64,000 bases of DNA from Promicromonospora sp. AC04 (lineage in GTDB: Bacteria; Actinomycetota; Actinomycetes; Actinomycetales; Cellulomonadaceae). The notes below the pieces were generated by a model that did not search any database, was not told the origin of the DNA, and saw only the letters and a program-made list of their open reading frames with translations. Position numbers and translations under genes: made by a program. The stretch is from assembly GCF_003058225.1 (NCBI RefSeq), contig NZ_QBUG01000001.1, forward strand, positions 496,001 through 560,000. The letters run 5' to 3'. Below, piece by piece: positions 25,078 through 58,911 of this stretch (positions are counted from its first letter, which is position 1; every line of letters begins with the position of its first letter).

Positions 25078-28000
25078 CTATCTCCCCCCGTTGAGAGGGC
25101 TCTTGTTGTACGTGGACTCGTGAACGAAGATCAGGCTGTGAGGCACTCGAACGTCGTACGTCACAACCTCTCCGTTCTCGTAGTAGCGCTTATATGTCTG
25201 CACGCTGTACTCGACAGCGGGGACATATCGCTGCCGACCGGAACATTCTCCAGGGCACGGTTCACTAGGAATATTCTTGCCGCTGGACCAGGAGAGCTCC
25301 TGAGTCGCAGATACCGAAGTCTCAAAGTTGCTTCCGAGCAATTTACCCGAAGCCGTCACGGCCACAGTGGTGGACCGACTCGAGCTTTCCTCAAAAGTCC
25401 AGGTGTTCTGCTGCTCGTCCCACATGACGACTCCTACGCCGACCTGCTCGTATGCCAGTCGCGGATCACCCTGAGAGATATCTGTGTACGGCCGAGCCGG
25501 CTGCACCGAGTAGCAACTGGACTCAAAGAACATGTACGTGAAAAGGCCGCAGTCGTTGCCCACAACACGCTCTGGCTCGATCCCTCGCACTACCTTAGGA
25601 GCCTTCGTCTTCTTAGGGCCATTCTTCCCCTCGAATCCCGGACCGCCCAGCGGCGGCTTCCAGGACGACTTCGGCTTGAAGGCAGACTTAACCGTCTTGA
25701 TGATCTTCTGAATCGCCGCGAACCAGCCGAAGAACAGCCCATCGGAATCGGACGCGGACGTCGGATTGTTGTTCGAGTACGCGTATCCGTTCATCTGCTG
25801 CATGTCATTGTGATCGATGACCGGATCAACCGAGATGAAACGGCCGAGCTCGTTGTCGTACTCCCGGGCACCGAGATGAGTCAGCCCGATGTCGGCATCG
25901 AGAGTTCCTCCGACGAACCCCTTCTCGCTCGGCCACTCGGCCGGCTGCTCACCACGCGGCATCCCGAACGGGTCCATCCGCCGCACGGACGTCGCCATCG
26001 TCACCGCGTTGATGGCGACCTGCGCCGTCCCGTGATGGTCGCTCGCGGTCCAGGTCAGGGTGCTGTCGGTACGCACGGCGACGGGCTGGCCGGCGTGGGT
26101 GTAGTAGCGCGTCGCCGTAAGCTCGCCCGTTGCCTCGTCCGCCCGCAGCTCCTGGCCCGGCAGGTACAGCGTGGAGACGTCGGGCGCGTGCCGGATCAGG
26201 CGGTCGCCGTCGGCCCCGTAGACGAACGAGGTGACCTGGCCGCCCTCGGTGACGGACTTGACCTTGCCGAGCTGGTCCCACTCGAGCCGCTGGTCACCGC
26301 GCTGGATGGTGTTGCCGGCGTCGTCGTAGGCGTACTCGTCCAGCGAGATCTGGGTCCCGTCGGCCGACATCGTCTCGGCCGACTCGACCACGTTCCTCTG
26401 CTCGGCCCCCGCCTCCGGGTACTCGTACCGCTCGGTGACATCCCCCTTGAGGGCGTGGTCCACCTTCGTGAGGCGGTTGCCGGACGCGTCGTACGTGAAC
26501 GACTGCCAGTACGCCGCCGGCCCCGAAAGGTCAGTCACGCTGGCTTCGTCGTCGCAGGACGTACCCGGGGTCCAGGCCTCCGTCAGCCGACGCAAGTGGT
26601 CGTACTCGAAGCACTGCCGGTCGGTCGCCAGCTCACCCGGGGTGTCGGTGATCGAGAGCACGTTGCCCGCGTCGTCGTACTCGTAGGCCAGGTCCGCCTG
26701 CTCGGGGCGAGGCACCTCGCCGTCGACCACCGTGCGGTCCACGCGACGGGTGTACTCGTCGTAGTACGTGGTGATCCAGGCACGCCGCTCGGACTCGTCG
26801 AACTCGGTGGCGCAGTCGTTCTGCTGGTCGTCGAAGTTGGGCACGCCGCCGAGCTGGACGCGCTGCATCTCGCCCAGGCGCGTGTACGTGGAGCAGGAGG
26901 CGTAGTAGGTGGTCCCCCCGGCGCCGTCGGCCCCGCCATAGGTCATCGAAGGGCGGCCGGCGTCGTCGTAGGTGTGGAAGATCTCCTCCTGCCCCAGGTC
27001 ACCGATCGCGGGCAGGATCTCGCTCTTCAGGCTGCCGTCCGGGTTGTAGGTGTACTCGGTGGCGTACGTCCGGGGGCCGCCGTTGCCGGCACCGAGGAGG
27101 CCCTCGGACTGCGGGATGGTCAGCAGGGTCTGCTTGGTCTGATAGGTCGTGGTGTAGGAGTTGACCTTCGAGGTGATGGTGTTGCCCTCGGAGTCCGGCC
27201 GGATCGCCGACGTCGGCCTGCCCTTCGCGACGGTTGCCGTGCCGTCGGGCCGCACCAGGCGCGTGCTGTCGTAGGTCCACCTCGCCAGGACCGCGTCGGC
27301 ATCGCTGCCGTCGCGCACGTACGTCTTGCGGCCCAGCACGTCGTACTCGTAGTCGAGCACCTGGCCGCGGGAGTCGGTGGTCCGCACGAGCTGGCCGGCC
27401 GCGTCGAACACAGACTCCGTCACGCCCGCTGACGGGTCGTCGCTGCGCACCTTCTGCCCTGCCAGGTTGTACTCGTAGCCCCACTCGCTCCCGGCCTCGT
27501 CGGTCACCGTCTCCAGCTTCCCGACGGGGGTGTACTCGTACCGGGTGATGTCGGCGTCACCCGTGGGCGTGTCGCCCTCGAACTGGTGCAGCGACGTGAC
27601 CCTGCCGCGCGCGTCCGTGACGGTCATGGTGGGCGTCCCGCCCTCGGGCGGCGTGACGTACGTCCGGTCGCCGCCATACCGGGTAAGGGTCTTCCACTCG
27701 GTCTCGGTGTTGGCCTGGAACGCCGCCTCGACCGGCCGGCTGGCCGCGTCGTACTTGGTGACGTTCTGCCCCAGCGACTCCGAGTCGGCCGCACGCCACA
27801 GGCGCGAGTCGACCGGCTCGTCGTTGAAGAACGGGTTGGTGACGATGTACTGGCGGCCCTGAGTGTCGTACCGGTGGTCCGTCAGCAGCCGCCCGCCGCC
27901 CGCCGCCGGGGCCTGCTCCTGCCGCACGCGATAGTTGCCGTCGTAGATGGTGCGCGCCTCGATGTACTGGGGTCGCGCGTCGTTGGAGTTCGGGCCGAGA

Positions 28001-30828: not shown

Positions 30829-33800
30829 GACTCGTCTCCTTCGGTCTGTGCAGCGAGGTCCGCGATCTCCTGTGCGGACAGGGCGCCCATCCAGGTGTCG
30901 ACCTGGTCGATGTCGCCCGTGAAGAACTCCGTGTTGGCCGCGCGCAGCTGGCCGCGGCCGATCGCCATGCGGCGTTGCGCCGCGGAGAGGGTCACGCCGT
31001 CCTGGATGCCGACCAGGGCGCCGTCCATGTACAGCCGCAGCTGTCTGGCCGGGTGGTCGTACACCCCCACCAGGTGCGTCCACTTGCCGATCGCCGCCGG
31101 CGGCCCCGAGTAGGCCCGCGCGAAGACGGCGTCGTCGGAGTCGGTGGTCCAGCCGCCGAACGACCAGCGCCCGATGTCGCCGTCGTACTGCAGCGTGAAG
31201 TCGCTCATCCTGGCCCCGTCCTGCGACGCGACCGTCTGCACGCCCGCGCTGTCGGTGACCCGCACGCGCGCGGCGACCGTGATGCTCCCGTACGTCGTCG
31301 CGCCGGGGTAGGTGGCCTGCGCGAACCCGGGGCTGGTGGCGTTCAGGGAGAGCGCGCGGCCGAACCGGCCGTCGACGAACCCGACGGCGCCGTTGGTGGT
31401 GGTCGGGTTGGCGCGCCAGGAGGTGTCGGTCACCGTGTCGTCGTCGAACGTCCACCTTCCGAGCGACGGGTCCCAGACGTCGTTGTAGACGGCGGCCACC
31501 TTGGGATCGGGCAGGACCTCGTCGAAGGTGCGGACGTCGTCGATGTGGCCCTTGAAGGGCAGGGTGAACCCATGGCTCGCGTCGCCCTGATGGGCTCCGA
31601 TCCGGAAGTCGCCGGACGCCGCGACGGAGTCGACGCCGGGCACGAGCTCGGACATGCGGCCGTTCACGTACAGGCGCAGCTGGCCCAGGTTCGGGACGTA
31701 GACCAGCGCGAGATGCGTCCAGTGACCGACCCGCACGGTCTCGTCGGAGTAGACGGCCTTGGTGACGGTCGCGCCGTCGGCGCCCCGCGACGCGATGACG
31801 CCGCCCCACCGGTTGCCGGCCCGCGCGATCACGAAGTTGTGCCCGGCGCTCACGACGGCCTCCCATCCGGTGCTGTCGCTCGCCGACAGCGGATAGACCC
31901 AGGCCGACGCCGCGTACTCCTCCCCGGCGGCGGGCACGGGCCCCTCGGCGGTCGCGTAGCCGTCCACGCCGTCGAAGGTGCGCGCCCGGCCGTGCCTGCC
32001 GCCGATGACGTCGGTGGCGGCGGCGTCGTGCATGGTCGCGTCCAGCTCCCCGACGGCGTCGACCGCCACCGCGGTGCCGTCCGCCTCGTCGAGCTTCCAC
32101 TGGTGGGTCGGCTCCGGGGGCTCCGTCGGCACCGGGTCCAGGAGTCCGCCCGAGGCGTAGAACGCGTGCAGCTCCTTGACCCGCGTGTCGTTGAACGCGC
32201 CGGTGTAGGCCCGCACGTCGTCGACCACACCCGGGAAGTACTCCGCGGGGTTGCCCGACCCGTCGCGGCCGCGGCCGATCTGGAGGTCGCCGGGTGACTG
32301 CCACGCCTCGACCCCGAACCCCTCGCTCATGCGCACCGCGTCGACGACGAGCCAGATCCGGCCCGTCGGGGCATGGAAGATGCCCGTCAGGTGCACCGGC
32401 CGGTCGAAGTCGCACGGGGCGTCGGGGTCCGGGTTGTTCGGGTCGCACCGGAACAGCCCGACCGAGGCGACAGTAGTCCCGTCCTGGTTGGACATCTCGA
32501 AGACCCAGTCACCGGTGGTATGCACGGCGGTGGGTCCGCCGTCGTAGCCGAGCCGCACGCGGCTGTCACCGCCCGACACGCCGTCCAGGCTCACCGCCGT
32601 GCGGACGCACTCGCCCGGGTCGGGTGCGTCCTCGTCCTCCTCTCCCTCGTCCGGCGTGCAGGCCGCGGAACGGTCGAGCTGGACGACGGCGGAGACGGTG
32701 AACGACCCGTCCGTACGAAGGTCGAGGTCGGAGGCCGAGAGGTAGTCGTCCTCGCCGTCCAGCTCGAGCGCGTTCCCGACCACGCCGTCGGTCCAGCCGA
32801 CCTGCGCCGTGCTCGGGGCGACGGCCGCGCTGCCGCCCACGGCGTCCGCCGCGCTGGTGCCCTGGCCCTCGTCCAGTCGCCAGTTGTGCCGCAGGCTCAG
32901 GTCCCGTCCGGCCAGGTCGCGGACCTCGTCCGGGAAAAGCACCCTGCCGTACGCGGTGACGTCGTCGACCGACCCGAGCACCCGGTTCTGCCGGTTGCCC
33001 GAGCCTAGGGCCGCGCCGATCTGCAGCTCGCCCGCCGGGTGATCCCACGCCACCGGGGCCGCGGCGGTGCCGGTGGCCTCCCCGTTGACGTAGAGGGTGA
33101 TGGTCCTGGCCGCCGCGTCGTACACGCCCGCCAGGTGCGTCCACACGTTGTCCTGCGCGAGCGGCCCCTCCACCAGGTAGGGCGTACCGGCGCCGTCGGT
33201 GGGCGGCCGCTGGAACCCCCACTTCCCGCTGGACAGCTTGACGAGCTGGAACGCGCTGGTGGTCCGCCCGTCCTGGGACACGATGGTCGAGGTGCCGTTC
33301 AGGTCGTCGATGCGTGCCCACGCCGTCACCGCGAAGCTCTTGGTCGTGTCCACCGCGTGTGGCGCCGAGACCCAGTCGTTCCCGTCGCCGGTCAGCGCCC
33401 GGTCGTCGCCGTCCTCGGGCAGATCGGTCTGCCCGGGACCCCACCAGCAGTCGGCCGCGGCAGTGGTGCCGTCGCAGTGCGCCGTCCCGTCCAGGGCATG
33501 CCCGGTCGCGTTGGTCGCGTCCCCGTCGAGCTGCCAGCGCCCGACGGCGACGTCGTCGCGCACCACTATCGCCTGGACCTCGTCGGCGCTCAGGGCCCTG
33601 GTGAACGCCCGGACCTCGTCGACGGCGCCGTTCCACCGCGACGACGGCGTCCCGTTCAGCCCCCGGCCCATCACGAACGAGCCGCTCGCCGCGAACTCCG
33701 TGTGCGGCCGGTCCTTCGGCGTCCCCGCCAGGCTCCCGTTCACGTACAGCCTGATCGCCCGGTTCGCGCCGTCGTGCACGGCGAACAGGTGCGTCCACGC

Positions 33801-48898: not shown

Positions 48899-48969
48899 GC
48901 GGGCGTAGCTCAATGGTAGAGCTCTAGTCTTCCAAACTAATTACGCGGGTTCGATTCCCGTCGCCCGCT
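48899..48969 (+). tRNA. tRNA-Gly (anticodon TCC)
   Basis: Acceptor GCGGGCG (48899-48905) pairs with CGCCCGC (48962-48968), discriminator T at 48969. The D arm is GCTCAATGGTAGAGC, the anticodon loop CTTCCAA with TCC, the T arm GCGGGTTCGATTCCCGT. No CCA is encoded. Its 3' half from 48929 is the left attachment core of the island. Confidence 0.97.
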
Positions 48970-48975
48970 CAGAGT
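48929..48975 (+). other. attL-type direct repeat (tRNA-Gly 3' end)
   Basis: A 47-bp stretch covering the anticodon loop to just past the tRNA end. It is repeated at 58410-58456 with one difference. This is the usual site-specific integration signature of tyrosine-integrase elements. Confidence 0.85.
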
Positions 48976-48978
48976 GCG

Positions 48979-49015
48979 GAAGCCCAGGTCAGGATAAGTT
49001 TCTGACCTGGGCTTC
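48979..49015 (+). terminator. tRNA-Gly terminator hairpin
   Basis: Perfect 14-bp arms at 48979-48992 and 49002-49015 around a nine-base loop. A sister hairpin with a different loop lies at 58460-58496 beside the right attachment repeat. Confidence 0.8.
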
Positions 49016-49100
49016 GTGCATTCTGGAGGGCTGGAAGCGGCGCCGAGTGGCCCTTATTGACCCTAAGTCGCTCGCGACGGGGTCAGGACCTGGAGCCAAG

Positions 49101-49285
49101 ATGTCCGCTTCACCCGATCCTCAGGGTCGCGCCCGTGGAGCCTCGCGCGCACCTCGAAGCATGTCCCCACGCAACCGTCGTAACAGCCGCCGCTCCTACG
49201 GCAACGTCCGGCAGCGCACGCCCGGCCGCTGGGAAGCCAGATACACCGGACCCGACGGTGTGCGCCGTCCGATCGGATCCTTTCA
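49101..49285 (+). pseudogene. Truncated tyrosine integrase, N-terminal remnant
   Basis: After an ATG at 49101 or 49161 the frame reads RRSYGNVRQRTPGRWEARYTGP followed by DGVRRPIG, the AP2-like arm-binding domain that opens many actinobacterial tyrosine integrases. Homology stops near SFHLPA, and the catalytic domain (R, H-x-x-R, Y) is absent. It sits next to attL, where the element's integrase should be. The loss makes the island unable to excise by itself. Confidence 0.7.
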
Positions 49286-49482
49286 TCTTCCGGCCACGAG
49301 TCCGATCGCTCGAATTCCACGTCGCGGGCCCAGGCCCCAATGCTCAGTTGACGGCAGTGGTCGCACATAAAAGCAGCATTGATCTTCTGGTGATCGACAT
49401 AGCTCGACGTTTGTACCACCTCAGGTCCGTGAGGTGTCATATTCGAGTGGACGCCGCACCAGCCACACACCGTCGATGTCAT
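49285..49482 (-). pseudogene. Truncated zinc-ribbon protein gene
   Basis: The minus frame starts MTSTVCGWCGVHSNMTPHGP and continues to INAAFMCDHCRQLSIG, giving two CxxC knuckles typical of a zinc-ribbon protein frequent in actinobacterial mobile elements. After about WPEDERI the sequence runs into the opposed integrase remnant and loses protein character. Both genes break at the same junction near 49285. Confidence 0.6.
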
Positions 49483-49596
49483 GACGAAACGGTACAAGCG
49501 AGCGCTCGTCGCAGAGGCGGAATCGCGGGGTGGGTACAGAACATCACCCTCGACACGACGGAGCCCGTCACGGCCGCCTCTGACGAACCATGTGCG

Positions 49597-49761
49597 TTAG
49601 CGTTGCCAGCTCCTGCCGTCGTCGTAGGACACTTCCCACGTGAAGCCACGCCCACCCGGGAGCTCCCAGGGCTTGGGCTCACAGTTGGTCGGCTCAGCCT
49701 CAGGCTCCCAAGTACACGGCTCGTCGGCAGCAAAGTCCTCTTCCCGGCCAGGCGCACTCAT
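49597..49761 (-). CDS. 54-residue small acidic protein
   Basis: A short ORF starting MSAPGREEDFAADEPCTWEP and ending PWELPGGRGFTWEVSYDDGR then SWQR. Its ATG overlaps the HAD hydrolase stop (49758-49761), so it is co-translated. Composition (Glu, Trp, Pro) is unlike shadow frames. No family is recognised; it belongs to the XRE/DUF6879/HAD operon. Confidence 0.65.
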   Translation of the reverse strand: MSAPGREEDFAADEPCTWEPEAEPTNCEPKPWELPGGRGFTWEVSYDDGRSWQR

Positions 49762-50594
49762 GCCGTTGGCCCCGCCTGTGCGGACGACACCAGGAGCCCA
49801 CGGAGCGCGGTTGCCGCGCCGTCGTCGTCAATCGTGCCGGTAACGACATCGGCCACAGCCAGCACAGGCGCGGGAGCATGGCCCATCGCGTACCCCTCCC
49901 CCGCCCACACCAACATCTCAATGTCGTTCTCACCGTCGCCAATTGCGACAGTGCGGCAGTCCTCGACGCCCAGGCGTTCACGCACCTTCTCAAGCGCCGT
50001 TGCCTTAGAGACGTTCGGTGGGGTGACGTCCACCCAATCCGGCCGTGTCAGTAGTGCTGTCAAACCGAGCGCGCTCAGGGCGGGTACCAGCCGCGCCGCG
50101 TCCGGCCCGAGGATCGCCAGCCGGGGCGTTGGCGAGGCCCAGAGATCCGCCAGGCGGGCAACGCCCTCCTGTCTGCCGTTGAGTTCGCCCCTAGGGAATG
50201 CCCCGCTCACGCGATAGCCGACGCCCACAGCCTCGGCCGCGATGCGCACGTTCGGTTGCAGTCGAGCTGCCACGCGTACGGCACTCTCGGCATGTACCGG
50301 CAGGCACTCCACCACGGCGTAGGAGCCGCCCGACAGTTGCGCCGTCGTGGCCCCGTTCGACGCCACCAACCACGCATCATCGAGCCCGAGCTCCCGGGCG
50401 ACAGGGAGCGCACCAGCGAGCGAGCGACCGGTAGACAGCACGACGTGATGACCAGCGCCGCGCACAGCCGATACCGCTTCGCGCACGGCTTGCGTGGCCG
50501 GTGATCCGGTGCGGACCAACGTCCCGTCAATGTCGCACGCCACGAGCAACGGCGCAGTGGCGTCGGCGGCCCGCAAGAGTTGCTGTGCAGTCAT
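49758..50594 (-). CDS. HAD-superfamily (Cof-type) hydrolase
   Basis: A 278-residue cytoplasmic phosphatase. Motif I is LLVACDIDGTLVRTG near residue 17-31 with both Asp residues, motif II VLSTGRS, the Cof-cap segment WLVASNGATTAQL, motif III Lys in NVSKATALEKV and motif IV IGDGENDIEML. It is of the Cof/sugar-phosphatase subfamily IIB. ATG 50594 is chosen; a GTG four codons upstream is possible. It lies 54 bp downstream of the XRE gene in the island operon. Confidence 0.92.
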   Translation of the reverse strand: MTAQQLLRAADATAPLLVACDIDGTLVRTGSPATQAVREAVSAVRGAGHHVVLSTGRSLAGALPVARELGLDDAWLVASNGATTAQLSGGSYAVVECLPVHAESAVRVAARLQPNVRIAAEAVGVGYRVSGAFPRGELNGRQEGVARLADLWASPTPRLAILGPDAARLVPALSALGLTALLTRPDWVDVTPPNVSKATALEKVRERLGVEDCRTVAIGDGENDIEMLVWAGEGYAMGHAPAPVLAVADVVTGTIDDDGAATALRGLLVSSAQAGPTA

Positions 50595-50648
50595 TGAAGT
50601 CACGCGCAGGACGCTAGAGGCGGTCACGCCATCGCGCGAGCAACTTGC

Positions 50649-51533
50649 TCAGAATTGCTCGGACTCGCTCCCGAGCCGCTCGGCCACGGTCTCTAGCGCC
50701 CGGTCGAGCAGCGCCCGCGCCTTCCGGTCGTAGTCGGCCGACACGGCCAAGGTCTCAAACACCTTCGTGTAGAACTCCACCTCGGGCGGCTGGGCAAGGT
50801 TGAGCTCTGCCGAGAAGGTCTCGATGGTCACCAGGTCTTTGTCTTGAACCCAGAACCCGTGCTGTGGTGCTACCGCGCAGAATGTTTCAAACGGGATGAT
50901 GCCGAGGCGGACGTTGGGGAGCATTGACAGCGAAATGATCCGGCCAATCTGCCCGAGCATGACGTCTGGAGGGCACAGCGTGTAGAGCAGAGTCGCCTCG
51001 GTGAGAATGAAGCGGAACTTCTTCGATGTGTCGCTCAGGATCTCCTGCCGCCGCATACGGGCCTCTACCGCAGCTCCGATGTCCTGAACGTTCCCGAACT
51101 GTCGCGCACTCTCGATGAATCGGGATCGGGCATACTCCGGGGTCTGCATCAATCCTGGAATGTACACAGGGCAGAACGCCCGGAAGAGTCGGGCCTGTTC
51201 CTCAGAGCGCGCATGCTTGTCCTGGAACGACGCCAGCCCACCCTTGAGCACCCGGCGCCACTCTGCGTGCCGCGTCTCAAGCGTGTGGAGGGCAGCCAGC
51301 AGACCCTCTGTCTCGTGCTCAGCATCGCAGGCGCCACACCATGCGCGGATGTCGTCGTCCGACGGCGTCTGCTTGGCGTGCTCGATCTTGGAGACCTTGG
51401 ACGGCTGCCAGGACAGCGAGACAGCGAGCCCCTGACCAGTCAGGCCAGAGGCTCGCCGCAGCTCTCGCAGACGCCCGGCCAGCTCGTTCCGTGCGTCGTT
51501 GACATCACCGCTACTTGAGGTGTTGCGAGGCAA
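50649..51533 (-). CDS. XRE-family regulator with DUF5753 domain
   Basis: A 294-residue regulator of the actinobacterial type. The helix-turn-helix is LAGRLRELRRASGLTGQGLAVSLSWQPSKVSKIEHAKQTPS; the C-terminal DUF5753 domain shows FRAFCPVYIPGLMQTPEYAR, FILTEATLLYTLCPP, RLGIIPFE and ETFSAELNLAQPPEVEFYTKVFE. TTG 51533 appears to be the start because no ATG or GTG is in frame nearby; it overlaps the DUF6879 gene by 23 bp. These regulators usually control neighbouring small genes. Confidence 0.92.
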   Translation of the reverse strand: MPRNTSSSGDVNDARNELAGRLRELRRASGLTGQGLAVSLSWQPSKVSKIEHAKQTPSDDDIRAWCGACDAEHETEGLLAALHTLETRHAEWRRVLKGGLASFQDKHARSEEQARLFRAFCPVYIPGLMQTPEYARSRFIESARQFGNVQDIGAAVEARMRRQEILSDTSKKFRFILTEATLLYTLCPPDVMLGQIGRIISLSMLPNVRLGIIPFETFCAVAPQHGFWVQDKDLVTIETFSAELNLAQPPEVEFYTKVFETLAVSADYDRKARALLDRALETVAERLGSESEQF

Positions 51534-52035
51534 ATTCGTCTCTCGTCATCGCGCGATGCCATGCGGCGTCACGCCAGTAGTTAAGTTCGACCACAACAGC
51601 CGGCTCTTCAATCAGCTCGAACCCCAGGAGGTTGTCCTGGTCGCCAAAGTGCATCTTGGCAGCCGTCCGAGAATCGAACAGCCAGTAGTCGAACGTGGGT
51701 AGCTCGTTGGCGTTGTCGCGGAGGAGATAGCGGATATCTTCGCCCGCGTCGTTGTTGTAATTGGAGAAGGCAAGACCGAACCGGCTGTAATCCGAGAGCG
51801 GAAGCGATACGACGCGAACACGGCGGTACACCTTGCCGTCGTCGGTATCCTTGCGAATGTCAACCAGCCAATCGCTCAGCCAATCAGGATTTGCATCACC
51901 CGCAAGGAATCGGCGCATTGGTTCATGCTCGCTCGGGACGTTGTAAGCCTCGCGCACTTCCAGCCGAAATGCCGTGTGCTCGAACGTCTCGAACAGATTT
52001 CGCCACTCGGGACCGATCGGTATTAGGTCCGTCAC
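51511..52035 (-). CDS. DUF6879 family protein
   Basis: A 174-residue protein starting MTDLIPIGPEWRNLFETFEH. It carries the DUF6879 signature core: VPSEHEPMRRFLAG, WLVDIRKDTDDGKVYRRVRVVSLPLSDYSRF, INYNDAGEDIRYL-like and YWLFDSRTAAKMHF. The family always lies beside XRE regulators in actinobacteria; biochemical function is unknown. It overlaps the 76-residue gene upstream (ATGA) and the XRE gene downstream. Confidence 0.85.
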   Translation of the reverse strand: MTDLIPIGPEWRNLFETFEHTAFRLEVREAYNVPSEHEPMRRFLAGDANPDWLSDWLVDIRKDTDDGKVYRRVRVVSLPLSDYSRFGLAFSNYNNDAGEDIRYLLRDNANELPTFDYWLFDSRTAAKMHFGDQDNLLGFELIEEPAVVVELNYWRDAAWHRAMTRDEFASQHLK

Positions 52036-52262
52036 TGAGCCTGCTTCGCCTTGTGCTCCAAGTACATCTCCAAGATCTCGACGGGCACCTCGACGATGTC
52101 CTCGTGGCCCGGCACCGTACCGACGTCGGACAGGGCGGCGCTGTCGGTCACCTTCCAGCCCTGCACCAGGAACGTCTCACGGTCCGTGCGGTCGGTGGCG
52201 AACAGCGTAGGCGAACCGTCCTTGCCTGACTGCGGGTCCTTGCCCAGGAAGCGTGCGCGCAT
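52032..52262 (-). CDS. 76-residue conserved small protein of the DUF6879 module
   Basis: MRARFLGKDPQSGKDGSPTL, then FATDRTDRETFLVQGWKVTD and a helical C terminus EVPVEILEMYLEHKAKQ. A GGAGAT site precedes ATG 52262. This type of small protein (with the DRETFLVQGWKV strand) often begins DUF6879/XRE operons. Its role is unknown. Confidence 0.8.
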   Translation of the reverse strand: MRARFLGKDPQSGKDGSPTLFATDRTDRETFLVQGWKVTDSAALSDVGTVPGHEDIVEVPVEILEMYLEHKAKQAQ

Positions 52263-52364
52263 GGTGGCATCTCCATTTGCTCGAAAACGGGGTGGACTGC
52301 CCGTCAAGGGTCGCCCGGCTCACAGTGGCCCGTCAAGGCTCCCTGTGATGTCACGCAACCCCGT

Positions 52365-52701
52365 TCACGCACTCGTCGAGCCGTCCCGCGTCGACCGGCA
52401 TACCGTTGCGCCGTGTCTGCCCAAGAGCAGAACCGGTCCCGCGGGCTGGCCGATGTCGAGCAGGATCAGGTCAAGTTCGGACCTGACCCTGCTGCAGGGG
52501 AAGAACTCAAACCCGTGCCTCAAGGACGCCTTGAGCAATCTGCCGGCGATCCCGTCGATCGGCAGGTCGGCGGTATGGAAGGCGAACTTGTCCGCGAGGC
52601 TTGCGGACCGATCTGAGACATCGGCGTATGTCACCCGGGCGCACGAGCAAGGTCCAGCGACCAACCTTCAGATCACAGCCAACCCGTATACCCATGAGCA
52701 T
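52365..52701 (-). pseudogene. Frameshifted hypothetical gene
   Basis: Two protein-like segments lie in adjacent frames. MGIRVGCDLKVGRWTLLVRPGD (from 52695) ends where the second frame begins, VTYADVSDRSASLADKFAFHTADLPIDGIAGRLLKASLRHGFEFFPCSRVRSELDLILLDIGQPAGPVLLLGRHGATV, to the stop at 52365. A single-base change near 52635-52645 would join them. The joined protein would be about 112 residues. No function is recognised. Confidence 0.45.
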
Positions 52702-52895
52702 GCATGTACTGGCCCGACCGCCTGAGGGTGATCAAAGGGTGAACCCGCGTGGCATCACAACATGAAACCGCGAGGATCCTCTAACATCGTCGAACTAACC
52801 ACATCAACCTCTCCAGCAGTCCGTGCATTTATCAGGAACTCGGACGCCAAATAAGACGCCCACAGCAAAATTCGACGCGCCAGATCGGTTAAAAA
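52702..52895. other. A/T-rich gap before the AAA-ATPase gene
   Basis: Clearly lower GC than the flanks, with no gene. It must hold the promoter of the ATPase-TOPRIM pair, since the upstream genes read the other way; no confident -35/-10 pair is assigned. Confidence 0.4.
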
Positions 52896-54260
52896 TTGAC
52901 CAGCAACGCCAAGAAGCCAGTACCGTTGAGAATACGCCGCATCGTTTATCGTGGCCTCATGGGAACGAAGGATGGGGTGATCGACCTTGACCCGGAGCGT
53001 CCCACGGTCCTGACCGGAGCCAATGGCAGCGGAAAATCAACCATCCTTCGCTTAACAGCGGCTCTCTCCCAGCTTCGAGTTAATGAGCTACGCCAGGCCC
53101 CGGTTCGCGAATTTCGTCTCGAATTTGAAGGTGGTGCGGATCTAGTATTACTTACTCGGCGAGGGTCCGACACCAGAACAGTCACTTGGGGGGACAGTCA
53201 CTACCGCTTCTCAAGTGATGCCGACGGCGATATCCCGACCTGGGCGCTGGATATCCTCGATGAGTCCGGTGGCTCCATACAGGTTGCCGCTGATGAGATA
53301 CTTGAAGCGGGCCTGCAAATGGGCATCGACCGCGACGAGATCATGCGAGCCCGTAACGCGCTCATCCACGGCAATCCAAAGTCCATCACCAACAAACAGC
53401 CAGAGTGGGCTAGTAACCTACTCAGCAGAATTAAGGTTCTGTTCGTCAGCGATCAGCGCATCATATCCACTGAGTCCACGGCCGAAGCGTCTCAGTATCA
53501 GCGATACGCTTCAGCGCGACAGGCACGCACCAGTACACGCTTCGCCGTCGACGCAGCATCGCGAAATATTGCTGATCGGATCCGGAGAGCTTCGTCAGAG
53601 TACGGTAGCCACTCACAGCGCCTGGACCGCGAACTTCCTGAACGCCTAATCACGGCAATGACGCGTCGTCGCGATATCGAACGGGCAACGCTCGAACGGT
53701 TGCTGGAAATCACGGAAAACCGGCGATTAGCTCTCAGTCAAGTGGGGCTTCTAGACGATCGTCGAAGCCTTCCGCTTAATGTGTCGGCCGAGGCTCTCGA
53801 GGATTCAAACACGCGTCGAGTCGTCCACGCAGTACTTGAATCCAACATGGAAAAATTTGCCGTCCTTGACAATCTCGAGACAAGGCTTTCTACGTTCAAG
53901 GAATTTTTGGACGAGAGATTCTATCCGAAAATCCTAACGATAGACCGGCGCAGTGGTTTCAGGTTCGAGCTTCCCGGTGCCCAGATTGTCACTCCACGCC
54001 AACTTAGTTCGGGCGAGCAGCAGATGACGGTGTTGGCTTATGAGATTCTCTTCAAGACCGACCGAGAGACTCTTGTTCTAGTGGATGAGCCCGAAATATC
54101 GCTTCACGTGCTGTGGCAGGACACACTATTGCGCGACCTAACCAAACTTGGAAGGCCATCAGGCGCGCGCTTTCTACTCGCCACTCACTCGCCAGCAATC
54201 CTGGCAGGCTCTCCGGACCTTGAGCGATCCCTCGACGAAGCTGTTGATGCCGAATGGTAG
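52896..54260 (+). CDS. AAA ATPase of a two-gene PARIS/OLD-like defence system
   Basis: A 454-residue ABC-type AAA ATPase (OLD/RecF-like). Walker A is LTGANGSGKST at residues 39-49; a coiled-coil-rich middle follows (IADRIRRASSEYGSHSQRLDREL, RRRDIERATLERLLEITENRR). The ABC signature is QLSSGEQQM near 368-376, Walker B LVLVDEPEISLH near 394, and the H-loop ATHSP near 429. TTG 52896 is the assumed start, which keeps the first strand LRIRRIVYRGL; TTG 52926 is an alternative. It overlaps the TOPRIM-like gene by seven bases. In PARIS, the ATPase AriA holds the effector AriB inactive until a phage trigger. DNA here is lower in GC than the chromosome. Confidence 0.85.
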   Translation: MTSNAKKPVPLRIRRIVYRGLMGTKDGVIDLDPERPTVLTGANGSGKSTILRLTAALSQLRVNELRQAPVREFRLEFEGGADLVLLTRRGSDTRTVTWGDSHYRFSSDADGDIPTWALDILDESGGSIQVAADEILEAGLQMGIDRDEIMRARNALIHGNPKSITNKQPEWASNLLSRIKVLFVSDQRIISTESTAEASQYQRYASARQARTSTRFAVDAASRNIADRIRRASSEYGSHSQRLDRELPERLITAMTRRRDIERATLERLLEITENRRLALSQVGLLDDRRSLPLNVSAEALEDSNTRRVVHAVLESNMEKFAVLDNLETRLSTFKEFLDERFYPKILTIDRRSGFRFELPGAQIVTPRQLSSGEQQMTVLAYEILFKTDRETLVLVDEPEISLHVLWQDTLLRDLTKLGRPSGARFLLATHSPAILAGSPDLERSLDEAVDAEW

Positions 54261-55192
54261 CTCTCAAGTACCGTTCAGGTGCCGAGTTGGGTCAAGCAAT
54301 ACGGATGCGTGTCAGAGGGCTCCGCAAGCCGACACCCATCCTCGTCGTCGAGGGAAAGTCGGACATTCAGATGATAGTGCGATACATCGACCCGAGCGTC
54401 CGCGTCGTCCCGGCGCACGGCAAGGACATAATCCTAGGAAGTCTCGACCATCTCAATGCGCGGGAACTAGCATCGTGCACGTTCGTTGTCGACTGTGACG
54501 GCGAGGTCGAATCAAAATGGCGCACGCGCGAGGACATTGTCATCTCACAACACCGTGATCTTGACATTGATACCGCAGTCCTTGGCGGCGGGCTACGACA
54601 CGCAGTACTGGACTACGTAGGCCCAATGTTTGAATCACGCCGCGAGTCCGAAGTTTTTACTGCCCGCCTCATTGACTTTGCCATGGGATTGTCTGGGACG
54701 TTCGGCGTTGCGGCGGATGCAGCTCGATCCATACCCGATCTACCTTTACGCCTATCCGTCACCGACGGACACCGGCGGAAGATTGAACTGTCCGATCTGA
54801 CGAGCTCTAGTCGTTGGGTTAGCGACTTATCGATACCGAGTGTCGCAACTATCATTGACGAGCTCGCCGATGCACTTAGCTGGAACAAGGACAACATCAC
54901 GAAAGTTCACCAGATTGCCGCCCTGGGTGAATCAAAGATGTGCAGAATGCATCACAAGACGGGTTGCGATAAATGCATGATACGGCGCTACAGTGGCGGG
55001 CACACGTTTCACTCATTTCTCGCGAGTATTCTGACGCTTGTAGTTGGCACTAGCATTTCCGAGCAGGAGATAGCTCGGTCGATTCGGGTTGGTTCCTCAT
55101 TTGCTAGCGAAGAGTGGGACGTCCTTAAGCGGCTCCATCTCCGTGGAATTCACATTGGCCTAAAGTACGTTGATTTCGGTACATTGAACTAG
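54254..55192 (+). CDS. TOPRIM/DUF4435-like effector protein
   Basis: A 312-residue protein. A TOPRIM-type core is visible: ILVVEGKSDIQM with Glu33 and Asp37, then FVVDCDGE with Asp80 and Asp82, followed by ISQHRDLDIDTAVL near 98-110, which parallels the TDxHDLE region of DUF4435 proteins. A second half holds a Cys/His cluster (Cys230, His233, His234, Cys238, Cys241) and a GGH motif at 248-250. DUF4435 is the domain of AriB, the PARIS nuclease that cuts a tRNA. It is coupled to the ATPase. The metal-binding-like cluster is not something I know from AriB, so this could be a variant family. Confidence 0.75.
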   Translation: MVALKYRSGAELGQAIRMRVRGLRKPTPILVVEGKSDIQMIVRYIDPSVRVVPAHGKDIILGSLDHLNARELASCTFVVDCDGEVESKWRTREDIVISQHRDLDIDTAVLGGGLRHAVLDYVGPMFESRRESEVFTARLIDFAMGLSGTFGVAADAARSIPDLPLRLSVTDGHRRKIELSDLTSSSRWVSDLSIPSVATIIDELADALSWNKDNITKVHQIAALGESKMCRMHHKTGCDKCMIRRYSGGHTFHSFLASILTLVVGTSISEQEIARSIRVGSSFASEEWDVLKRLHLRGIHIGLKYVDFGTLN

Positions 55193-55306
55193 AGTCTCTC
55201 GACGTCTACCCGAACCGTTGGGCATGTGGGCCTGCTGCACGTTTGAATGACACGTGCCGTGCCGGTCTTGAGCACCATGCGGAGACGCCGATCGCAGTGA
55301 TGTTCT

Positions 55307-55780
55307 CTACCAACCTGGCTTGACGTATCCCCGCGGACGGAAACGAGCGGAGGTCCGGCGGCTGGCCCCGACTGCACGCACCAGGATTACCGCAGAGTCC
55401 ACCGTCGATGCCCACCTCGGGTCACGCAGACCATCCTCTGCCAACAGCTTGGCCAGGTGAGTCAGTACCTTGCGTGCCGCTACAGGAGAAGCCTGCACCC
55501 GCCTGACGCACTCATCGAGCCCGTGTTCGGTCGTCGTGACGGTTTCCACGACATCGACGGCGATGGCTCCGGCGGCTGCTGCCCGACGTTCTTCGTATGC
55601 GGCGCGCCGACACCGTTGCGAGCACCATCTCGCGGGCCGTCCCGTCGCCCTTACTGGGATAGGGTTCCCGCATCGAGGACACACGCCAGAGGTTCCCACG
55701 CGAGAGCCGGCAGCCCGAGGCTCGGTAAGCGTGCGAAACCCATCGCCCCCCAGCCCGGCTGAACTCTTGTCGTCGCTCAT
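55307..55780 (-). CDS. Zinc-finger protein of unknown function
   Basis: A 157-residue protein starting MSDDKSSAGLGGDGFR. A treble-clef-like knuckle CPRCGNPIPVRATG followed by RPARWCSQRCRRAAYEERRAA gives four Cys, the pattern of FCS/MYND-like zinc knuckles in actinobacterial mobile elements. The C-terminal half is helical (DECVRRVQASPVAARKVLTHLAKLLAEDG). ATG 55780 is preferred over 55906 because only this part looks like protein. It may bind DNA or protein; its role is unknown. Confidence 0.7.
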   Translation of the reverse strand: MSDDKSSAGLGGDGFRTLTEPRAAGSRVGTSGVCPRCGNPIPVRATGRPARWCSQRCRRAAYEERRAAAAGAIAVDVVETVTTTEHGLDECVRRVQASPVAARKVLTHLAKLLAEDGLRDPRWASTVDSAVILVRAVGASRRTSARFRPRGYVKPGW

Positions 55781-56281
55781 TCGTCCATCCCAAAAGTTTC
55801 GTACGGACGTAACCGCACACAGCTTGTGCAAGAGGTGTGTGGCCTTGGTCGTGGCGGTCCGCGGGACCCGCTGTCCACTGATCCGCTGATCACCTGCCCC
55901 AGCCACGCAGCCGCATTCAGCCGCGCCGCTGTGTCCGTTCGTCGCGTGCGCGTCGTCGTCGCTGCTCGCCGCCTGTGTCGCTGCTGTCAGGGGCCGGAAC
56001 GCAGGGCTGGTCTCCCGGGGGTGAACGTGGTCAGACCCCTGGGCATGCGAACGAGGCAGGCTTCCCCGATGCGGGGATGTTGCCTTGGACCGGTGAGTGG
56101 CGGTGCTGGGCTACAGACCGACCCGGAGCGATCCCCTGCCGCCGACCGAAGATCGCGAGGCGACGCGCCCAGCTCAGTTCCAGGTCAACGACTAGCTTCC
56201 CGAACCAACTGAGCGCAGCTGCTGGCTCATGTACCCGATGCGGCAATGGCAGTTCAGGGCTCCGACGCCCTCTCGGCTAGG
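55781..56281. other. Island segment without a recognisable gene
   Basis: About 500 bp. The frames present on either strand are Arg/Pro/Cys-rich shadows without binding sites. It may hold decayed coding sequence; nothing can be named. Confidence 0.5.
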
Positions 56282-56565
56282 TCATCGTCGATCAGGGCGG
56301 CGCTTCGTTTCACTCAAGTCGTGCGCGATCGCGACAACAAGGAACCGGATGAGGCCGACACGATCCATGCGGTCCGCAGCTTCCTCTAGCCTCTGATCAG
56401 CATCGGCCAGGTGGCTGCGGTCGAGGCCGCATTCTTGCTTGCCGAGTGCAACAGAGGCCTCCCGACGCTTCGCGTGGACTCCGACGAGGAGCGAGTCTCA
56501 AACCGTTCGGCCATTTGCACAAGTTTGGTGGAAACCTGATCCGGGACGTCGGAAATGAGTCTCCG
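56282..56565 (-). pseudogene. Frameshifted remnant downstream of the TIR gene
   Basis: In frame after the TIR gene's TGA, the minus strand reads ISDVPDQVSTKLVQMAERFE. It then continues in another frame as SLLVGVHAKRREASVALGKQ, ECGLDRSHLADADQRLEEA and ADRMDRVGLIRFLVVAIAHDL to a stop at 56282. Both parts are protein-like and together would give a helical domain of about 95 residues. It is either a lost C-terminal extension of the TIR protein or a separate decayed gene. Confidence 0.4.
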
Positions 56566-57708
56566 TCAGCCCACTGAGATATTGAGAATCTTCATGCTGA
56601 CAAGTTCACGGAAGAGCTCAATCCCCTTGTCGTTGAGCTTATCCTTCTCGAACTCGATATAGCCGACGCTGCTGAAGTTCGACGGGAGTTCGATCCCACC
56701 TTCTTTAAAGACGACAATCCGCTCGCCGTAGAGCACCGAGGCAGCTCCGAGTTCGTGTGAGACGTTCTCGCTCGGACGCCAGATGCTACTTCCCTGAGCG
56801 TCGAAGTACTCCTTGTCGGCCGTGAACACGAGGATGGCCGCGCCGCACTCCCGCATGGTCTCAGCGACCTTCGACGGAATTGGGCGGGCACGGTTCGGTT
56901 CCTCCACAGCCACCTTGTGGGGGATGCCATACTCCGTAAGGATCTTGACCAACTGCTCCATCGGCTTCTTGTTGCCGCCGTGGCCCACGAAGATCGCGTT
57001 CCTTCTAGGATCGGGCACAGACGGCGAGGTCTGTGCCCGAGCAGCAGGTGTACCGTCCTCCGACACGTCTTGGACCGGGGACGTCGGTGTCGTTGCGCCC
57101 ATTTCGTCGTGCAGGTGCTCTACGGAGCCATCCTCATCGCCGGGCAACGCCAGAGACGGGGCCGAGCCGCCAATGTCGACGTACTGGCGGTCCTTGATGG
57201 CCTTCAGAAAGCCGACGAACTCAGCGTTCTCGATTAGGAGGTCGTAGACGTCGTTTGTGCGGTCCATAGGTACAGAGAAGGTGGCCAGAACGTTCTGCGC
57301 GATGTTCTTGGGCGGTAGAGGGGATCCGTCGTACTTGGTGTAGAACTGAGCCGCGATCGTGGGCTGGAGCGCCGCCTCTCGGAGTGCCTTCTGGTCGTCG
57401 CCCACCTCAGTCGGGGACACTACACGAGCACCCAGCTTTGTTAGCGAGATCGCCGGCGCGTTCGGACCGCCTTCCGTCAGCCCGTAACCGATCGCGGCAC
57501 CACACATCACGCGAAACGACCCGGAAGAGGGAGCCATGTCGACAGCCGAGGCGACATCCAGCGGCCGCGTGGCATGCGAAGCGTAGTTGTCAGCCAGAGC
57601 GCGGGGAACCCGAACCGCACGTTCGAGGCTGATCGATGGAATGTCCGATTGACTGATGCGGGACCTCTTGCTGGCGGGCTTCGCCCCCTGGTTTGCCCTT
57701 CCGGTCAT
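56566..57708 (-). CDS. TIR-like (CAP12/PF10137-type) nucleotide-binding protein
   Basis: A 380-residue protein. The N-terminal 190 residues form two winged-helix-like segments (LERAVRVPRALADNYASHAT, FRVMCGAAIGYGLTEGG, AISLTKLGARVVSP; then NVYDLLIENAEFVGFL-type helices). An acidic, Ser/Thr/Pro-rich linker follows. The C-terminal domain is the TIR-like PF10137 fold: NAIFVGHGGNKKPMEQLVKIL, VAVEEPNRARPIPSKVAETM with the catalytic-type Glu, AAILVFTADKEY, NVSHELGAASVLYGERIVVFKEGGIELPSNFSSVGYIEF. Related domains degrade NAD+ in CBASS-type and other anti-phage systems. ATG 57708 is assumed; GTG 57756 is an alternative. Confidence 0.85.
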   Translation of the reverse strand: MTGRANQGAKPASKRSRISQSDIPSISLERAVRVPRALADNYASHATRPLDVASAVDMAPSSGSFRVMCGAAIGYGLTEGGPNAPAISLTKLGARVVSPTEVGDDQKALREAALQPTIAAQFYTKYDGSPLPPKNIAQNVLATFSVPMDRTNDVYDLLIENAEFVGFLKAIKDRQYVDIGGSAPSLALPGDEDGSVEHLHDEMGATTPTSPVQDVSEDGTPAARAQTSPSVPDPRRNAIFVGHGGNKKPMEQLVKILTEYGIPHKVAVEEPNRARPIPSKVAETMRECGAAILVFTADKEYFDAQGSSIWRPSENVSHELGAASVLYGERIVVFKEGGIELPSNFSSVGYIEFEKDKLNDKGIELFRELVSMKILNISVG

Positions 57709-57756
57709 GATGCGACGGTACGCCGGATCCGCCGTATCCGCGCGATACCACCCCAC

Positions 57757-57792
57757 GCATCGGCGTGCCGGTCACATGCGTCGGCGTGTCGG
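57757..57792. promoter_or_regulatory. Two 15-bp direct repeats upstream of the TIR gene
   Basis: GCATCGGCGTGCCGG (57757-57771) and GCGTCGGCGTGTCGG (57778-57792) match at 13 of 15 positions and are 21 bp apart, two helical turns. An A/T-rich stretch further upstream (57800-57860) could carry the promoter. They may be a regulator's binding sites. Confidence 0.4.
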
Positions 57793-58079
57793 GTTTATTC
57801 AGATGAACTGGCCGAACATGGCCTGGCCGATTTATTTCTCTTGCTACAAATGATCCTATTGTCGGGTCCGCACCTTCACCCAAGGCTCGCCCGAGAACGA
57901 GGAGTGCTGGTGGCCACCATTTGCGCTGTGCTCCGCGTCCGGCTCGCGCCGGGAGTGACTAGGACGGCGCTCGGGCTGGACGTCTGGCTCGGCGACTCGA
58001 GAGGTGGCCCGCACGCTGGCAGCGACGATGGTCCGGTGGGCACACGCCATGTGGGTCCAAGAGCACGCGGCAACGGGCC

Positions 58080-58268
58080 CTGCACAGCTGCCGCGACCGT
58101 GCGCGCGCCTACTGCGAATCCGGTCGCGGCGCCTTTGCTGCACGGGACCTCAATCAGGCCGTCCCGGTTCGCCCTGACAAGCCCTTTGACACACTGGCCA
58201 GGCAGTCGGCAGGTATGCACGGCCGACCATCGTTGGAGCGGCATAAGGCTGGCCCTTATTGGCCCTAA
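58080..58268 (+). pseudogene. Possible 3' coding remnant near the island's right end
   Basis: One plus frame reads HSCRDRARAYCESGRGAFAA, RDLNQAVPVRPDKPFDTLAR and QSAGMHGRPSLERHKAGPYWP to a TAA inside the inverted repeat at 58249. Upstream, protein-like sequence continues in another frame (REVARTLAATMVRWAHAMWV), suggesting a frameshift. No family is recognised. Confidence 0.3.
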
Positions 58269-58309
58269 CTTCCGCCAAACTGGCCCCAGTTAGGCCCAAT
58301 AAGGGCCAG
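58249..58309. repeat. 21-bp inverted repeat near the island's right end
   Basis: Arms 58249-58269 and 58289-58309 pair with one mismatch around a 19-base loop. Each arm carries TGGCCCTTATTGG(C/G)CCTAAC. Close versions occur at 49048-49067, just inside the left end, and at 58529-58548. These may be integrase arm-type sites. Confidence 0.8.
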
Positions 58310-58409
58310 TCCCAACCCCACACGACCCCGCTTCAGCATTACAATAGGTCCAGGTCAGCGGCCACCTTTGGCCGATTGGCCCGCATCATCTGATCGCCAC
58401 CCGGCAAGG

Positions 58410-58456
58410 CTTCCAAACTAATTACGCGGGTTCGATTACCGTCGCCCGCTCAGAGT
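58410..58456 (+). other. attR-type direct repeat (partial tRNA-Gly copy)
   Basis: The 47-bp right copy of the tRNA-Gly 3' end, differing at one base in the T arm from the left copy. It cannot encode a tRNA because the 5' half is missing. It marks the right boundary of the island. Confidence 0.85.
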
Positions 58457-58911
58457 ACGGAAGCCCAGGTCAGAGCGTGTGTCTGACCTGGGCTTCGTGC
58501 GTTCTGAGGGGCCGGAAGCAGCGCTGAGTGGCCGTTGTTGACCCTAGGTCGCACGCGAGGTCGGGTCAGGACCTGGAGCCAAGACGTCCCCTTCACCCGA
58601 TCCGCAGTCACGCAGCCATGGTGCTTCGCGCGCACCTCGAAGCATGTCCCCCACCAGCCACCGAGCAGTAGGAGCTGCGGCCCGTCCGGGCCGCGCGAGC
58701 TCTGGCTCGTGCAGGGTCGGGTCCTCGTCGGCCGGCTGCCACCAGAGAACCCGCGGCAGGTTGCCGCGCCCGGGACCGACATGGCGCTTGGCTGACGAAA
58801 TCTTGAGGTGTTCATTTGCTAGCTATTGTGCAACATGGGTGAAATCTCCTATAAAGGTAGCGATCGGGTCACAACTGAAGTGGCTCGACGGACCTTCAGG
58901 GGAGCTGCCCA
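58457..58911. other. Duplicated flank and esterase upstream region
   Basis: 58457-58652 repeats, with scattered differences, the sequence that follows the tRNA at 48976-49165, including the terminator hairpin (58460-58496) and the bases up to the integrase-like ATG. After that the similarity ends. No gene is assigned in the rest. Confidence 0.6.
58826..58855 (+). promoter_or_regulatory. Candidate promoter of the SGNH esterase
   Basis: TTGTGC (58826-58831) and TATAAA (58850-58855) with an 18-bp spacer, about 57 bp before the ATG. Both match the housekeeping sigma consensus reasonably and stand out from the GC-rich flanks. Confidence 0.5.

Follow-up and report, generated by a model that had tools for sequence, protein, structure and literature searches.

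Two overlapping genes of Promicromonospora sp. AC04 represent, with good probability, a remote actinomycete branch of the two-gene immune system PARIS (phage anti-restriction-induced system), carried by a degenerate tRNA-Gly island and working in a PARIS-like manner. The genes lie in a stretch of 64,000 nucleotides of contig NZ_QBUG01000001.1, the whole of which is called the window in what follows. At the level of sequence, the assignment is based on an AriA-type ATPase, a TOPRIM-type partner that retains the acidic residues, the tight linkage between the genes, and the recurrence of this arrangement in relatives from bacteria and phages. The genes are:

52896..54260, forward strand: ariA-like gene, OLD/ABC-type ATPase of 454 residues, starting at a TTG codon at 52896 or at 52926
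54254..55192, forward strand: ariB-like gene, TOPRIM-type putative nuclease of 312 residues, starting with ATG and overlapping the ariA-like gene by seven bases

An earlier reading of this DNA (the original prediction) had proposed a seven-base overlap of the two genes and a GC (guanine plus cytosine) content lower than that of the flanks, and both are borne out. The start of the first gene is ambiguous between the two TTG codons; the frame of the second contains a stop at 54245 followed by the ATG at 54254, which is the sole start before the overlap ends. The GC content was found to be 0.553 for the ariA-like and 0.540 for the ariB-like gene, versus 0.707 in positions 1-48000 of the window and 0.613 in positions 48971-58406. 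Given bases in the proportions of the second gene, the chance of a stop-free frame is approximately 2e-6 for 312 codons and approximately 5e-9 for 454 codons. Promoter and terminator scans yielded signals no better than those of shuffled sequence.

The first protein belongs to the AriA type, AriA being its best match in the Protein Data Bank (PDB) by sequence, by profile and by predicted fold. The solved E. coli AriA was the top match both with phmmer and the single sequence (expectation value, E, 2.3e-13) and with a nine-sequence profile (8.5e-29), the runners-up with the latter being the retron I-A ATPase (6.5e-16), PtuA (1.6e-13) and OLD (7.9e-10). With a structure model built from seven sequences (mean predicted local distance difference test score, pLDDT, 71.0), Foldseek returned PARIS, AriA or AriA-AriB entries at all ranks from 1 to 15 (1.2e-16 to 4.9e-12); the first non-PARIS match was a retron entry (1.9e-9), and Smc and Rad50 entries were also found below the PARIS ranks. 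In PADLOC, AriA models came first (3.6e-22 and 4.5e-22), followed by PtuA (4.4e-18), MAD3 (7.8e-16, residues 12-437) and AbiLi (7.2e-13). The Pfam matches were AAA_21 (72 bits, cut-off 27) and AAA_15 (44.8 bits, cut-off 32), and residues 14-438 are matched by the phage family phrog_7507 at 1.1e-40. No AriA model was among the matches in NCBIfam, the best of which was PtuA, with 35 bits where 500 are required. In the AriA tree, the long branches of which were flagged by the tree program, the protein joins those of three Streptomyces-like loci (L006, L007 and L013; support 100/99), to which it is 32-37% identical. The Walker A, ABC signature, Walker B and H-loop motifs that the original prediction had listed were all found, with their key residues invariant in the nine AriA-like sequences aligned:

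53016..53042, forward strand: Walker A, GANGSGKST (G41, N43, G44, G46 and K47 invariant in nine of nine)
54003..54020, forward strand: ABC signature, LSSGEQ (L370-Q375, invariant in nine of nine)
54075..54095, forward strand: Walker B, VLVDEPE (V394 and D397-E400 invariant in nine of nine)
54180..54191, forward strand: H-loop, ATHS (A429-S432, invariant in nine of nine)

By homology, the second protein is a remote relative of AriB. It was aligned with 25 others, some of which are near-identical to one another, and the TOPRIM acids proposed earlier (Glu33 and Asp80/Asp82) proved unvarying in all 26 sequences, the RDLD region being always acidic at position 104:

54350..54364, forward strand: TOPRIM motif E33-G-K-S-D37 (E33 and D37 in 26 of 26)
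54491..54499, forward strand: TOPRIM motif D80-C-D82 (D80 and D82 in 26 of 26)
54557..54565, forward strand: third acidic site D102-L-D104 (Asp or Glu at column 104 in 26 of 26)

A further conserved motif begins with G249, which is also unvarying, followed by His (23 sequences) or Lys (three) at position 250. The link to AriB was obtained by comparing profiles with hhalign. The window's protein together with three kin aligned with five phage DUF4435 proteins with a probability of 95.2% (E 2.6e-8, 222 columns) and with five Streptomyces-like AriB sequences with 99.1%, and the latter aligned with the DUF4435 profile with 98.8%, while the unrelated controls gave 0.1% (integrases) and 0.3% (AriA). 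In a profile scan of genome contigs, the partner gene of Streptomyces coelicoflavus matches at 4e-13; among the genomes of the class, that of genome G449, of a Streptomyces-like family and with a pair near-identical to that of S. coelicoflavus, matches the window's AriB at 1.3e-13. The AriB of G449 is itself matched by the PADLOC AriB model at 2.8e-4 and by DUF4435 with 14.8 bits, which is under the cut-off. In the PDB, a ten-sequence AriB profile finds the TOPRIM domain of RNase M5 (3.3e-4), and RNase M5 was the only match of a five-sequence DUF4435 profile (0.29); the active site of E. coli AriB has also been likened to that of RNase M5 in a passage of PMC12409363. A PDB search with the single sequence of the window's AriB was empty, which says little because PDB sequence searches with the phage DUF4435 AriB proteins found no AriB chain either. 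In the fold search with a model of moderate quality (eight sequences, pLDDT 75.6), small TOPRIM proteins rank third and fourth, as weak matches (E 0.69 and 0.80, probability 0.57 and 0.60), and viral models offered no usable match (best E 0.068). Thus, the TOPRIM homology is supported by the sequence profiles and the retained acids, and not by the fold search, which gave no confident match. In the AriB tree, the branches are long and the window's protein was not placed.

Several observations weigh against the assignment to PARIS. The template modelling scores of the AriA fold matches are modest (0.41-0.54 by query length), and, across the nine AriA-like sequences, each of which is matched by both the AriA and the PtuA models of PADLOC, the best single E-value belongs to a PtuA model (4.4e-27, with 5.7e-26 for AriA). 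For the second protein, no Pfam family exceeds its cut-off (DUF3226 scores 19.4 bits where 27 are required), PF14491 (DUF4435) gives no match at E up to 1, and the PADLOC AriB model, the only one of that library to match, does so weakly (0.018). Its nearest AriB relatives, those of Streptomyces-like pairs, are at best 24-28% identical to it, and position 251 is Thr, where 22 of the 26 sequences have Asp. The profile that aligned with DUF4435 at 95.2% is built from the window's protein and three kin, to which the link is partly due, and with the ten-sequence profile a de novo designed TIM barrel outscores RNase M5 (9.7e-5). The best PDB fold match of the moderate-quality AriB model has an E of 0.54, and an AriB entry was not seen among the best 50 of its 242 fold matches.

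The genes might instead belong among the wider OLD-ABC and TOPRIM systems (OLD, AbiL, MADS or Septu-like) and act unlike PARIS, for example as an ATPase-directed DNA nuclease. This is unlikely, even if PtuA, MAD3 and AbiLi models all match the ATPase, the PtuA model gives the best single value across the nine sequences, and OLD TOPRIM domains cut DNA, as stated in part of PMC10568477. However, PADLOC, the PDB searches by sequence and by profile, and Foldseek all rank AriA first for the window's ATPase, and the PADLOC AriB model is the only one that finds the second protein. Moreover, the partner is encoded separately as a small protein, and no HNH or helicase match was obtained in the eight frames scanned in or near the island. 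Septu PtuA, the retron ATPases, OLD, AbiLi and MAD3 belong to the same ATPase superfamily and match the window's ATPase less well than AriA does. The PtuB partner of Septu and of retron-associated PtuA was lacking, as no HNH match was found in the second protein with four libraries, and the frames scanned gave no reverse-transcriptase match. Gabija and the class 1-3 OLD proteins differ in that they combine ATPase and TOPRIM in one protein, whereas the window has two separate genes. No AbiLii match to the partner was found in PADLOC. AbiL and Septu were accordingly rejected as better labels, given their weaker ATPase matches and the absence of a matching partner; of the two layouts that the original prediction had allowed, that of AriA/AriB is supported, with AriA as the best PDB match, and that of AbiL is the weaker one in PADLOC.

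The pairing of the two genes is retained in relatives. AriA relatives were found at E 1e-25 in seven of 394 genomes of the Streptomyces-like family of G449, and an AriB-like gene lies directly downstream in all seven. In the order to which the window belongs, AriA was found at 1e-20 in two of 371 genomes, the window's own and G360, where the AriB-like partner overlaps AriA by four bases; in S. coelicoflavus the genes are four bases apart. A search of viral contigs with a phage AriB led to seven loci, all with AriA upstream. The AriA profile yielded 26 viral loci, 14 of them with E below 1e-20, and in each of these 14 a frame matching the AriB profile lies directly downstream, seven of the 14 being on the same contigs as in the phage AriB search and the AriB profile holding a sequence identical to one of them; among the 12 weaker loci the same was seen in two. 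Overall, AriA relatives at the strict threshold have a downstream AriB-like gene in eight of eight bacterial and 14 of 14 viral cases. Of the two checks named with the original prediction, on the fold of the second protein and on the neighbourhood of its homologues, neither contradicts it; as to the latter, an AriA-type ATPase was adjacent in every case examined that had a full-length ATPase.

The window's type of AriB is rare. It was found in one of 396 genomes of the order (its own) and, with the profile at 1e-5, in two of 396 of the phylum (itself and G449). Among 394 genomes of the class there were three matches, namely itself, G449 and one in G684 that was dropped as spurious (37 residues with an internal stop). 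In the genus, AriA was found at 1e-15 in one of 13 genomes, the window's own, and within that genome each gene is a single-copy match (AriB at 0.001, AriA at 1e-10). Scans with the single AriB protein found no relative in viral contigs or in genome contigs, and neither did a scan of viral contigs with the single AriA protein; AriB searches of phages and plasmids were empty. The alignment profiles A3 and A4 found no relative in viral contigs, and A3 led to one locus out of 43 candidate stretches in genome contigs.

According to the part of PMC9122126 that sets out the rule, a PARIS requires AAA_15 (32 bits) or AAA_21 (27 bits) together with DUF4435 (PF14491) at 27 bits. The window's ATPase exceeds both of the first two values, and its partner falls short on the third. 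Under the published rule, the pair thus does not count as a PARIS; judged by homology, it is a remote branch of that family and very likely functions alike. The AriB-like genes beside AriA in five Streptomyces-like loci (L008-L012) also gave no PADLOC and no DUF4435 match at E up to 1, and with Pfam one of the five had a single, chance-level match (DUF5371, 0.19). The detection gap is therefore larger than one odd gene, and, with the window's nearest relatives matched only weakly, counts based on models of the PADLOC or DUF4435 type may miss actinomycete PARIS (the comparison covers these models, the DefenseFinder ones standing outside it). A search of open-licence papers found none on this branch.

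With E. coli PARIS the pair shares the OLD-type ABC ATPase, the TOPRIM-type gene close behind it, the location on mobile DNA, the retained TOPRIM acids, and the solved AriA as nearest PDB relative of its ATPase; unlike in E. coli, the window's AriB lies under the DUF4435 cut-off and has extra stretches and a Cys/His cluster. The Streptomyces-like pairs (L006, L007 and L013; L008-L012) also have the partner gene adjacent to AriA, but are without the Cx2Hx4Cx2C pattern of that cluster. A pair of Yersinia phage vB_YenM_31.17, between the repressor and the integrase of a Peduoviridae phage, has the same gene order and an AriA 24% identical to that of the window. Its partner is a clear DUF4435 protein (87.3 bits) and is 11% identical to its counterpart in alignment A1, with CNGHD where the window's AriB has SGGHT.

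In the E. coli system, as described in the parts of PMC12409363 and PMC11455837 that deal with it, a hexamer of AriA keeps three copies of AriB inactive until AriA is bound by a phage protein, Ocr for example; AriB is then released, dimerizes and cuts tRNA-Lys and other tRNAs with the aid of two metal ions. The window's pair holds the components for such a scheme. By analogy, a ring of the AriA-like protein would hold the AriB-like protein inactive, with release occurring when a protein of the phage, perhaps one that inhibits restriction, binds to AriA. Once free, AriB would cleave RNA by means of two metal ions, the probable substrate being a tRNA; translation would then stop, growth would be arrested and the phage would fail. 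The molecular descriptions of PARIS in the papers cited are those of the E. coli system, and the diverged window and Streptomyces-like pairs provide material to ask which parts of AriB set the RNA target and which phage proteins other than Ocr trip AriA.

The Cys/His cluster towards the C-terminus of the second protein was correctly noticed in the original prediction (C230, H233, H234, C238 and C241 are present):

54941..54976, forward strand: Cys/His cluster C230-x2-H233-x4-C238-x2-C241, a possible zinc knuckle directly before the conserved G249-H250 motif

Judged by its spacing, it is most likely a zinc-bound stabilizing or recognition loop beside the Gly-His motif, which reads GHT in the window's AriB. 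Zinc binding is inferred from the spacing because the pattern is that of one protein in a poorly modelled region, residues 235-243 having a pLDDT below 50. Cx2Hx4Cx2C is present in one of the 26 AriB-like proteins, the window's own, and in none of its 25 relatives, and the AriB proteins of L013 and L044, which are outside the 26, have neither a Cx2C nor a Cx2H pair. A pattern defined only after the cluster had been seen, Cx2[CH]x2-20Cx2C, arose in 16 out of 20000 shuffled versions of the window's AriB, and a looser one, with Cys or His at all four places, in 618 of 20000 shuffles and in three of the 26 proteins. The cluster was rejected as the mark of a subtype, which would have to await further members that carry it. 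As for the suggestion that the pair may be a new subtype, the cluster was found in one protein only, and the second protein lies outside the published DUF4435 rule. The singularity of the cluster and its place beside the conserved motif would also agree with an AriB-like effector with a new target, in which the cluster would stand in for a portion of the usual recognition surface. With one sequence alone carrying the cluster, and a low-confidence model at that very place, such a change of target is rather unlikely. A still more specific proposal is quite unlikely, namely that of an actinomycete PARIS branch missed by the DUF4435 cut-off, in which the effector's recognition surface is partly swapped for a zinc knuckle, so that a different RNA is cut (or zinc or redox conditions gate the activity), and AriA senses an actinophage protein unlike Ocr.

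A degenerate genomic island located at tRNA-Gly harbours the putative PARIS pair. The island of approximately 9.5 kb (48926-58651) is bounded by direct repeats of tRNA-Gly 9.48 kb apart:

48899..48970, forward strand: tRNA-Gly(TCC), the integration site (tRNA call, Rfam)
48926..49168, forward strand: left direct repeat, made up of the 3' part of tRNA-Gly and approximately 200 following bases
49161..49276, forward strand: start of a tyrosine integrase gene, truncated here and long in relatives
58407..58651, forward strand: right direct repeat, sharing 88% identity with its left counterpart

The tRNA island of the original prediction thus has a single tRNA, that for Gly, 3.9 kb upstream of the pair, with its 3' part recurring at 58407. 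The Rfam scan found tRNA only, and a guessed tRNA-end pattern had no match. The repeat stretch was matched in all 13 genomes of the genus, that of the window being one of them, and is present twice on one contig in at least three others, approximately 24, 24 and 45 kb apart (G1464, G1466 and G1465, respectively). A long frame leads from the tRNA into one integrase family in six of the 10 relatives' loci examined (L026 being outside), the Pfam Phage_integrase assignment having been checked on locus L030. The homology of the window to this integrase frame ends at 49276. The pair thus occupies an integration site that has been used repeatedly, in an element with a broken integrase on the tRNA side. 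The truncated integrase, and the presence of the ATPase in the window's own genome alone among 13 of the genus, could also indicate that the pair itself is decayed or non-functional; with both frames open, the catalytic motifs intact and the overlap retained, this is very improbable.

The same 9.5 kb hold a TIR-domain gene, a DUF5753 regulator and a DUF6879 gene. The first, which is the sole match to its family in the genome, is likely a second defence gene of the island:

56566..57756, reverse strand: TIR-domain gene of the CAP12/Pycsar type (CAP12-PCTIR_TIR 55 bits; PADLOC PDC-S35 5.9e-14)

The regulator, a helix-turn-helix/DUF5753 protein, is encoded by a gene that overlaps the DUF6879 gene (50649-52035, reverse strand); paired genes of this kind are known from actinomycetes. 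In two relatives (L025 and L027) a tRNA-Pro-like sequence lies within approximately 1.5 kb of the tRNA-Gly, and in the window the two are 31 kb apart (17455-48970), which suggests further insertions or a rearrangement between them. Elsewhere in the window, a tRNA-Arg call (23879-23964, reverse strand) falls inside a regulator-like frame of 934 residues and may be false. Finally, a very long frame with RHS-like repeats recognized by eye occupies positions 25078-32448 (reverse strand); its C-terminal end (25-26 kb) has a GC content of 0.589 and resembles polymorphic proteins with exchanged tips.

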